Origin: Bacteroidales bacterium
GTDB taxonomy: Bacteria > Bacteroidota > Bacteroidia > Bacteroidales > UBA932
NCBI GenBank assembly: GCA_017614715.1
Contig: JAGABI010000025.1
Span: forward strand, 1-64,000
DNA: 64,000 nt
Reading direction: 5' to 3'
Part shown: positions 2,133-50,084 of the stretch, piece after piece
Position numbering within the stretch: position 1 is the first letter of the stretch
Layout of the letters: each line of letters starts with the position of its first letter
Made by a program: the position numbers and the translations under genes
Notes under the pieces: model-generated
Database searches by the model: none
What the model was told of the DNA's origin: nothing
The model's input: only the letters and a program-made list of their open reading frames with translations

Positions 2133-2277
2133 AAGTTTCGCATCTACCTTAATTCTTTATTTTGAGCGGCAGGTGGTATGCGAAACTTTTTCCTACCGCA
2201 CATTCTTTTATGTTTGTCCCCAACCCTATATCCCTTCCCCAGGGAAGGGACTTTTTCCAACGCCTTACGGCTCTAAA
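2133..2277 (-). repeat. 145-bp dispersed structured repeat, copy A
   Basis: Read on the minus strand, this unit begins TTTAGAGCCGTAAGGCG, contains a hairpin with arms TCCCTTCCC / GGAAGGGA, and ends with an 11-bp perfect inverted repeat AAGTTTCGCAT (2133-2143) / ATGCGAAACTT (2178-2188) around a 34-base spacer. A second copy of almost identical length and order lies at 47318-47463, directly upstream of mutS and in the same orientation relative to the gene it precedes. The lptE start lies 19 bases beyond this copy. No protein is encoded. Confidence 0.75.
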
Positions 2278-47293: not shown

Positions 47294-47317
47294 GACGTTT
47301 TTTTGGTACTTTTGTAG

Positions 47318-47463
47318 TTAGAGCCCGTAGGGCGTAGAGTAAGTCCCTTCCCCGAGGGAAGGGATTTAGGGATGGGGATACGTAATAAGTAAAGTGCGGG
47401 AGGGAGAAGTTTCGCAAATATCTCTAACGCACATGTTTAGGTAGAATATTCATTTGCGAAACT
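47318..47463 (+). repeat. 145-bp dispersed structured repeat, copy B
   Basis: Plus-strand unit beginning TTAGAGCCCGTAGGGCG, then a hairpin with CCCTTCCC/GGGAAGGG arms (47344-47363), then GATGGGGATACG, GTGCGGGAGG, and a 12-bp perfect inverted repeat AGTTTCGCAAAT (47408-47419) / ATTTGCGAAACT (47452-47463) around a 32-base spacer. It matches copy A (2133-2277, minus) in order, spacing and most bases. The mutS GTG start is two bases past its end. Confidence 0.75.
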
Positions 47464-47465
47464 GA

Positions 47466-50084
47466 GTGAACGTGTCGGATAAGAATACCCCATTGATGCA
47501 GCAGTACTACGAAATCAAATCGCAGTACCCCGATAGCATTTTATTCTACCGTGTGGGTGATTTTTACGAGACCTTTGCGGAAGATGCGGTGGTGGTGAGC
47601 AAGGTGTTGGGGCTGGTGTTGACACGGAAGGCGAGCGGTGCCGGCAGTTACACCAATCTGGCAGGAGTTCCGCATCACGCCATAGACATTTACCTTCCCA
47701 AGATGGTGGCAGCGGGCTATAAAGTGGCCATCTGTGACCAGCTGGAGGACCCTAAGCTGACCAAAAAACTGGTGAAGCGCGGCGTCACTGAGTTGGTAAC
47801 TCCGGGCGTGAACTACAACGAGGCGCTGCTCGACTCCACAAAGAATAACTGGCTGTGCGCACTCTATTTTGAGAAGGACCTGGCCGGTGCGGCATTTCTG
47901 GATATCTCCACAGGTACGTTCCGCGTGGCGCAGGGCTCGCTGGACCTGGTGGATCTGCTGCTGGCCGATTATGCCCCCAAAGAGATTCTTTTGCAGAAGG
48001 GGTTTGAAGACGGGTTCAAGCAGCGTTTTGCCGAGAAGTCGTTTGTAACATCGGTGGACAGTTGGGCGTTTGTATATCACACTGCATATAAGAAGCTCAT
48101 CAAGCAGTTCGAGACCGACTCCCTGAAGGGATTCGGGGTGGAGGATATGCCGCTGGCCATAACTGCGGCCGGTGCGGTGATGGCTTATCTTGATATTACT
48201 GAGCATAAGGATATCTCCCATATCCGCACCCTTGGACGGATAGACAGCGGCGAGTTTATGTGGATAGACCGCTTTACGATGCGCTCCCTGGAGGTTCTGC
48301 AACCGATGTCGCAGGGCGGGGCCTCCCTGATCAGCATCCTGGACAGCTGCCGCTCTCCGATGGGGAGCCGCCGCCTGCGCGAATGGATGGCTATCCCCCT
48401 CAAAAACCCTGCTGCGATAAAGGCCCGTGCCGATGTCGTGCAGGCTTTTTATGACAACGCCAAACTCCGCTCGGCAATCCGCGACCGCATCGCAAACGTC
48501 GGTGATCTGGAGAGGATAGTGTCGCGCGCTGCGGCTGGCAAGATACTGCCGCGGGAGGTGCTTCAGATGGGGCGCGGCCTTGAGATGATAGGTGATATAA
48601 TCGAACTGGGGCGCGGGGAGGAGGCCATTGCATCGCACATCGGCCGGCTGGATGCCTTGAAGGAGCTTTCGCAGCGTATTGCAGCCACCATAAAGGCCGA
48701 TACTGCGCAGCAGGTGGGCAAGGGCGAGGTTATCGCCGCAGGCATCGATGCAAAGCTGGATGATTACCGTAACATCCTGGAAAACAGCAAGAACATCTTG
48801 CTTGACATTCAGCAGCGGGAGCGTGACGCTACCGGTATTGCATCGCTCAAGGTAAGTTACAACAACGTATTCGGCTACTATCTGGAGGTACGCAATACCT
48901 ATAAGGACCTTGTGCCGGCCGACTGGATCCGCAAGCAGACGCTGGTTGGTGCGGAGCGCTATATCACCGCGGAGCTCAAGGAATACGAAGAGAAGATTCT
49001 GGTGGCACAGGACCAGATTGTGGCTATAGAGTCGGCGATTTACGCCGATCTGGTGCGTGAACTGCAGGCAAACATCGCCGCCATTCAGCGCAACGCTGTG
49101 GCTGTGAGCGAATTGGATTGCCTGAGTTCGTTCGCCTTCACCGCCCGTGAAAAAGGTTACCATCGTCCGGTGGTGGACGATTCGCTGGAAATAGATATCA
49201 AGAAGGGGCGCCATCCGGTTATAGAGGCACTGCTGCCTGAGGGTGAGGAGTATGTCGCAAATGACGTCTTCCTCAGCAACGACAGCCAGCAGATAATAAT
49301 CCTCACCGGTCCCAATATGGCCGGTAAATCGGCCCTGCTGAGGCAGACGGCCCTGATTGTGCTGATGGCGCAGATCGGGTGCTTCGTGCCCGCAAAGAGC
49401 GCCCATATCGGCTTTGTGGACAAGCTCTTCACCCGCGTGGGAGCATCGGACAACATCTCCCGGGGCGAATCTACCTTTATGGTGGAGATGACGGAGAGCG
49501 CAACCATCCTGAACAATCTTTCACAACGGTCGCTGCTGCTGCTGGACGAGATAGGTCGCGGCACCAGCACATACGACGGAATGTCCATCGCCTGGGCTAT
49601 TGTAGAGTATCTGCACGCAAGCCCGATGGCGCCCAAGACGCTGTTTGCCACCCATTATCACGAACTCAACGAGATGGAAACCCAGCTCGACAGGGTTCAT
49701 AACTTTCACATTTCCACGCAGGAGGTAGACGGACACGTGATTTTCCTGCGCAAATTGTGTCCCGGCGGGGTGGCCAGCAGTTTTGGTATTCACGTGGCCC
49801 GCATGGCCGGTATGCCCGACGCGGTGCTGCACGCGGCACAGAAGAAGCTCAGCACGCTGGAGGGTAGCAAAGCCTCAGGGCAGGCCGGCGCTGCCGGCGC
49901 GCACCCTATGCAGCTGTCGTTCTTTCAGTTGGACGACCCGCTTTTACTTGACATTAAACACATTATCGAGAGAATAGATATCAATACGATTTCCCCACTA
50001 AACGCTTTTGATACTATCAGACAAATCAAAAACAAATTAGCTGGAGGAAAAGACGATGGAGATCTTTCATCAAATCAAAAGTGA
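47466..50084 (+). CDS. mutS: DNA mismatch repair protein MutS
   Basis: Mismatch-recognition ATPase of 872 residues. The mismatch-binding Phe-x-Glu motif lies in LFYRVGDFYETFAEDA near the N-terminus. Walker A GPNMAGKS, then ESTFMVEM, LLLDEIGRGTSTYDG and FATHYHEL. The start must be GTG: an in-frame stop at 47463-47465 immediately precedes GTG 47466, and a second GTG is at 47472; the first ATG (47496) would remove residues before the conserved LMQQYYEIK. The C-terminus (PLNAFDTIRQIKNKL) overlaps the next gene by 29 bases. Confidence 0.96.
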   Translation: MNVSDKNTPLMQQYYEIKSQYPDSILFYRVGDFYETFAEDAVVVSKVLGLVLTRKASGAGSYTNLAGVPHHAIDIYLPKMVAAGYKVAICDQLEDPKLTKKLVKRGVTELVTPGVNYNEALLDSTKNNWLCALYFEKDLAGAAFLDISTGTFRVAQGSLDLVDLLLADYAPKEILLQKGFEDGFKQRFAEKSFVTSVDSWAFVYHTAYKKLIKQFETDSLKGFGVEDMPLAITAAGAVMAYLDITEHKDISHIRTLGRIDSGEFMWIDRFTMRSLEVLQPMSQGGASLISILDSCRSPMGSRRLREWMAIPLKNPAAIKARADVVQAFYDNAKLRSAIRDRIANVGDLERIVSRAAAGKILPREVLQMGRGLEMIGDIIELGRGEEAIASHIGRLDALKELSQRIAATIKADTAQQVGKGEVIAAGIDAKLDDYRNILENSKNILLDIQQRERDATGIASLKVSYNNVFGYYLEVRNTYKDLVPADWIRKQTLVGAERYITAELKEYEEKILVAQDQIVAIESAIYADLVRELQANIAAIQRNAVAVSELDCLSSFAFTAREKGYHRPVVDDSLEIDIKKGRHPVIEALLPEGEEYVANDVFLSNDSQQIIILTGPNMAGKSALLRQTALIVLMAQIGCFVPAKSAHIGFVDKLFTRVGASDNISRGESTFMVEMTESATILNNLSQRSLLLLDEIGRGTSTYDGMSIAWAIVEYLHASPMAPKTLFATHYHELNEMETQLDRVHNFHISTQEVDGHVIFLRKLCPGGVASSFGIHVARMAGMPDAVLHAAQKKLSTLEGSKASGQAGAAGAHPMQLSFFQLDDPLLLDIKHIIERIDINTISPLNAFDTIRQIKNKLAGGKDDGDLSSNQK

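Follow-up and report, generated by a model that had tools for sequence, protein, structure and literature searches.

A small mobile element with a covarying pseudoknot in front of start codons of rumen Bacteroidales

Two copies of a structured repeat before lptE and mutS

The window analysed here comprises 64,000 nucleotides of contig JAGABI010000025.1 from a Bacteroidales bacterium, whose genome (G000) amounts to 2.0 Mb in 69 contigs. It contains two copies of a structured repeat, copy 1 at 2277–2133 on the minus strand and copy 2 at 47318–47462 on the plus strand, with positions and order of parts as given in the initial annotation. Copy 1 reaches further left than described there, to position 2301, and an extra hairpin (GTTTCGC-AATTA-GCGAAAC) is part of the element. 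Both copies indeed adjoin a gene start, the distances of 19 and 2 bases being corrected to 21 nt at lptE (ATG 2113–2111, counted from the stem end) and to 3 or 9 nt at mutS, which starts with the GTG at 47466 or at 47472. The larger distance at lptE is due to a 10-bp target-site duplication between stem and ATG. The features are the following.

2301–2310, minus: first, left-hand occurrence of the duplicated 10-bp target site AGAATTGGGG, copy 1; in the relatives G021 and G006 a single copy lies directly before the lptE ATG
2283–2301, minus: hairpin HP0, GTTTCGC-AATTA-GCGAAAC, copy 1; remnant of the left terminal inverted repeat, outer CTCAA lost
2262–2271, minus: hairpin HP1, GCC-GTAA-GGC, copy 1
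2232–2252, minus: hairpin HP2, AGTCCCTTCCC / GGGAAGGG, copy 1
2217–2230, minus: conserved G-rich single strand TATAGGGTTGGGGA, copy 1
2192–2199, minus: S1 5' strand GCGGTAGG of the pseudoknot, copy 1
2178–2186, minus: S2 5' strand GTTTCGCAT, copy 1
2166–2173, minus: S1 3' strand CCTGCCGC, within the 'variable spacer', copy 1
2130–2143, minus: S2 3' strand plus TTGAG, the right terminal inverted repeat TGCGAAACTTGAG, copy 1
2116–2125, minus: second, right-hand occurrence of the duplicated target site AGAATTGGGG, immediately followed by TT-ATG of lptE
1604–2113, minus: gene downstream of copy 1, named lptE in the initial annotation; no NCBIfam model matched
47307–47314, plus: box TACTTTTG just upstream of copy 2, which we take to be a Bacteroidetes-type promoter box (TAnnTTTG); also found in the closest relatives, whose sites are empty
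47318–47466, plus: copy 2, form without HP0, with the end TGAG at 47463–47466
47323–47333 and 47342–47366, plus: hairpins HP1 and HP2 of copy 2
47394–47405 and 47421–47432, plus: 5' and 3' strands of helix S1, copy 2
47409–47419 and 47452–47462, plus: 5' and 3' strands of helix S2, copy 2
47466–50084, plus: mutS, GTG start at 47466 or 47472

In general the element is 150–190 bp long (298 bp with a nested insert) and has no open reading frame. From 5' to 3' it is composed of HP0, which is present in full-length copies only (CTCAAGTTTCGCA-N-TGCGAAAC), HP1, HP2, a G-rich strand (AGGGATGGGG), a TGTGCGKYAGG block, the 5' arm of S2 (GTTTCGCAAG), a loop, the 3' arm of S2 (CTTGCGAAAC), TTGAG or TTGTG, and the start codon. 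HP1 is a hairpin of 3–4 bp, for example GCCC-GAA-GGGC, with several alternative stems that vary in a compensatory manner among copies (GCCC/GGGC, GTCC/GGAC, GACC/GGTC, GCAC/GTGC, GGCA/TGCC), and HP2 is folded from AAGTCCCTTCCC and GGGAAGGGATTT. At 2217–2239 and 47356–47376 four G tracts (GGG-AA-GGG-...-GGG-..-GGGG) stand beside a C-rich partner, and a G-quadruplex could form there as an alternative to HP2. Other sequences nested within HP2 were seen at the loci L004, L316, L317 and L353–L355.

Related elements in other genera possess the HP1-HP2 core together with different terminal stems, so that the core may be older than the ends described here. Three of them in genome G071 (L311, L312, L313) have a swapped terminal stem (AACGTCAGTTCGACGAA; AACGTnAGTTCGAnGAA) and apparent 5-bp duplications (ATAAT, ATATT). 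A second subfamily (CCCTCCCC..GGGGAGGG; L243, L240, L031) bears, in three genomes, a leader word TGCGATGAC(G) complementary to a word in the early coding sequence of the gene that follows. Furthermore, the core-bearing elements L085 and L093 are located between imperfect direct repeats of about 30 bp. The idea that the 3' part of the element copies the start-codon region (L085, L091, L093) was dropped because copies in front of different genes have the TTTCAT motif in common, and by sequence alone this motif is complementary to the usual start AUGAAA.

Distribution and position relative to genes

Both repeats are copies of a small mobile element of rumen Bacteroidales which is found before many unrelated housekeeping genes. 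The genome-wide search for the stem proposed in the initial annotation found GTTTCGCA-N20-50-TGCGAAAC eight times in G000 and the reversed control pattern not once. A covariance model made from 28 copies matched at least 14 copies in this genome and about 115 in the home genus, where 21 of 26 genomes have between 1 and 15 each. G076, which belongs to another genus of the same family, has 13 copies, and for the other genera of the family the matches were mostly zero and the remaining few weak. The exact core CCCTTCCC-N-GGGAAGGGATTTAGGGATGGGG occurs in 67 stretches, all titled Bacteroidales or Bacteroidia and mostly ruminant-derived, and had no match in viral contigs. Degenerate or partial copies also exist (xseB, L359). 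No account of the element was found in the open-access literature, which omits most subscription papers.

The 3' edge of S2 is followed within 13 nt by a sense start codon in 46 of 53 distinct pseudoknot copies (median distance to the ATG 8 nt), and at random a sense start within 15 nt is expected for 5.1 %, as estimated by rough gene calling from the intergenic DNA of the window in either orientation. The constant position relative to start codons claimed from two copies thus extends to the family, and the random positions and orientations that had been named as arguing for a passive repeat were not found over the 53 copies. The ancestral gaps at the insertion sites, between co-directional genes, measure about 0–5 nt or are overlaps; they explain much of the constant distance but not the constant orientation. 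By NCBIfam the downstream proteins include RecR, dUTPase, an RlmB-like methyltransferase, HolA, a CinA-like protein, MutS and a GlpT-like transporter; others, read from sequence, are presumably PolA, UvrA, PurA, ThyA, RecA, Pth, ArgG, HisG, PyrB, AroC and GalE. The same gene can be hit in several genomes (holA in G000 and G017, a purA-like gene in G022 and G076). Some core copies are found where a convergent gene ends and come with a terminator-like hairpin (L049, L071, L081, L110, L067, L088, L101); the first four of them look like one conserved site.

Ends, target duplications and empty sites

The suggestion of a mobile element was borne out by terminal inverted repeats, target-site duplications and empty sites. 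Full-length copies show both ends and duplications in their sequence: those of G076 have complete ends with a 13-bp terminal inverted repeat (CTCAAGTTTCGCA...TGCGAAACTTGAG), for which 14 sites were counted in that genome and none for the reversed control. Five copies with a left end show duplications of 7–10 bp, namely TATGAATTA, TTATAGTG and TAATGACA in G076, the first of which includes the ATG of the downstream gene, as well as TAATCAA and AGAATTGGGG. The longest word common to both flanks averaged 6.18 in 11 copies with a left end compared with 4.29 after shuffling (0/2000). Most copies of the home genus have an intact right end only. Neither a left terminal inverted repeat nor a detectable duplication (3.97 vs 3.80 shuffled) was found in 33 copies that start with HP1, the home-genus majority, and the commonest form is therefore unlike a textbook miniature inverted-repeat transposable element (MITE). 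This form includes young private insertions such as that at mutS; it may possess another type of left end or move by a one-ended process.

At mutS the element of G000 sits between TACTTTTGTAG and the start; in G021, G006 and G007, whose MutS proteins are 94–98 % identical, the site is empty and the same promoter box is followed by the start region a few bases on. At carA the relatives have an overlapping stop and start (ATAATG), between which the element is located in G000. Copy 1 at lptE is placed between two copies of AGAATTGGGG (2310–2301 and 2125–2116) and the closest relatives have one; empty sites of relatives exist also at lptE, dut, holA and the glpT-like gene. Most insertions occur in one genome only. 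Of the shared ones, the recR copy is common to G000, G006 and G021 and absent from G010, G016, G018 and G024, and the rlmB-like copy is common to G000, G021 and G007 and absent from G006. The cinA-like gene of G006 has an apparent scar which looks internally deleted. A terminal inverted repeat pair enclosing a transposase was not found among the sites listed for 250 family genomes, mostly fragmented assemblies. In G104, from another genus of the family, many near-perfect 28-bp palindromes (CTCAAGTTTCGCA-CT-TGCGAAACTTGAG; L373–L386) correspond to both terminal inverted repeats fused and are REP-like.

With its terminal inverted repeats, target-site duplication, short non-coding multicopy nature and empty sites, the full-length form has the features of a MITE. 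Bacterial MITEs (PMC10969869) and BrickBuilt of Porphyromonas gingivalis (PMC4596501), the latter likewise from the Bacteroidales, are also short, multicopy and intergenic with inverted-repeat ends and no open reading frame. However, BrickBuilt lies 49–591 nt from genes and contains tandem repeats and promoters (PMC4596501), whereas the present element ends about 8 nt before starts and has a covarying pseudoknot. The text of a MITE review, as far as searched, mentions neither start codons nor pseudoknots (PMC10969869). By description, BOX, RUP and SPRITE of Streptococcus pneumoniae are similar as modular small repeats near genes with folding transcripts (PMC3049150; PMC10969869), but the parts of these accounts that were consulted do not describe a strict placement in front of start codons.

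The pseudoknot and its possible effect on translation

S2 is formed by the GTTTCGCA/TGCGAAAC stem. The block before it pairs with the first part of its loop in a helix S1 (for example GCGTCAG/CTGACGT, GCGGTAGG/CCTATCGC and TGCATTGGTGT/ACATCAATGC), and since S1 crosses S2 the arrangement is an H-type pseudoknot. The spacer described earlier as not conserved is indeed variable in sequence but not unpaired throughout: the GTGCGG block base-pairs with the beginning of the spacer, and the 'variable spacer' is one strand of the second helix. In 35 non-redundant copies the S1 duplex averages −16.4 kcal/mol with the cognate partner and −12.35 ± 0.47 kcal/mol with partners shuffled (0/20,000), a comparison that is not a full null because the copies have common ancestry. 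A score from Watson-Crick pairs only gave 7.71 vs 5.85 ± 0.26 shuffled (0/300), and the preference for the sense over the antisense strand goes beyond composition (difference −3.93 vs −2.71 ± 0.36). Copies with quite different S1 (L046, L047, L043) pair best, or nearly so, with their own partner. S2 has 10 bp, its variable positions 9 and 10 being paired in 34/35 and 26/35 copies (0/5000 shuffles) and positions 11 and 12 not belonging to the helix. The two crossing helices are thus kept by covariation. Pairing is kept in two orthologous insertions (pepD, an aroH-like gene), for which swapping strands as a test of compensatory change gave a mixed result.

Prevotella bryantii is a species of the Bacteroidales without functional Shine-Dalgarno pairing, in which structures of −5.2 and −11.1 kcal/mol near the start brought reporter protein to 0.12 and 0.007, respectively, and a −9 kcal/mol hairpin at −21 was harmless (PMC3155529). 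In the present element the S2 hairpin by itself has a mean of −12.7 kcal/mol, and the ATG follows 8 nt after its end. Given the effect in P. bryantii, a leader of this kind should repress, be opened by something or offer another entry; the element may therefore be a translational brake or switch, or an unusual site of translation entry. The promoter activity suggested in the initial annotation found no support: TACTTTTG of the mutS copy lies upstream of the element and is present at the relatives' empty sites as well.

These observations can be joined in one scheme. A non-autonomous DNA element of about 150–190 bp would be mobilised in trans by a putative transposase that acts on the 13-bp repeat CTCAAGTTTCGCA and duplicates 7–10 bp of target. 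It occupies tiny gaps just 5' of start codons in sense to the downstream gene, and its transcript would form the 5' leader of that gene. In this RNA the right inverted repeat is predicted to become S2, crossed by S1, with about 8 nt between the end of the pseudoknot and the start. The fold would lower or condition translation initiation at the host gene; because the start codon is left outside the helices, insertions would be tolerated. We give this reading, a mobile non-autonomous element before start codons providing a pseudoknot leader that affects translation initiation, a probability of roughly three in four. Considerably more doubtful is a stronger form, in which a transposable translation-control module inserts selectively in sense before starts and confers the same pseudoknot-gated initiation site on each host gene, as a common switch or an internal-entry type of initiator in a phylum without Shine-Dalgarno initiation.

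The most serious rival, with a chance a little below even, is a passive MITE whose position is a leftover of purifying selection in a compact genome and whose pseudoknot serves transposition by folded-end recognition. The ancestral gaps of about 0–5 nt or overlaps, the unrelated host genes, the mostly private insertions and the coincidence of S2 with the terminal inverted repeat all fit it. However, a neutral element entering a co-directional gap should do so in either orientation, and among the pseudoknot copies placed against genes no antisense one was seen just before a start; convergent and longer intergenic regions are also available and rarely used by the pseudoknot form. A conserved riboswitch-like RNA controlling a regulon appears improbable. 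The covarying structure directly before starts and its fold z-score (about −4) are what such an RNA would show, and to this extent the proposal of a shared regulatory RNA holds. A regulator of a gene class is a different matter, since the host genes (mutS, carA, dut, recR, holA, the glpT-like gene) are unrelated, without a common pathway, and insertions are mostly private, the sites differing even between species with 94–98 % identical MutS; a search of Rfam at the gathering score and at E up to 2 matched no relevant family.

About as improbable is a single-strand element of the REP or IS200/IS605 type whose movement depends on a Y1 (RAYT) transposase. Hairpins near both ends, the constant orientation, the HP1-start form without terminal repeat or duplication and the presence of Y1_Tnp genes in these genomes speak for it. 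None of the 12 Y1_Tnp loci has a terminal inverted repeat or core nearby except for one chance-like site with two mismatches, nor were the same hairpins found flanking an adjacent Y1 gene. We know of no terminal inverted repeats or target duplications in IS200/IS605-like and REP-like elements. REP elements are likewise palindromic, intergenic and present in many copies, and Y1 subclass 2.6, which occurs in Bacteroidetes, has atypical secondary structures on its flanks (PMC6006769; PMC3733652), but the full-length element differs by its terminal repeats and 7–10-bp duplications, and no Y1 gene examined adjoins a copy. In its full-length form the element is best filed as a MITE, one that would work in the manner of a 5' leader RNA.

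It is a puzzle that core genes tolerate such a leader in many species. If the reading of a mobile pseudoknot leader is right, rumen Bacteroidales harbour a selfish element that repeatedly rewires the translation starts of core genes (mutS, carA, dut, recR, holA), and sister species with and without the leader at the same gene provide natural experiments. These would also bear on the way in which strong structure at the start codon is handled by ribosomes working without Shine-Dalgarno pairing, a question raised by the work on Prevotella.
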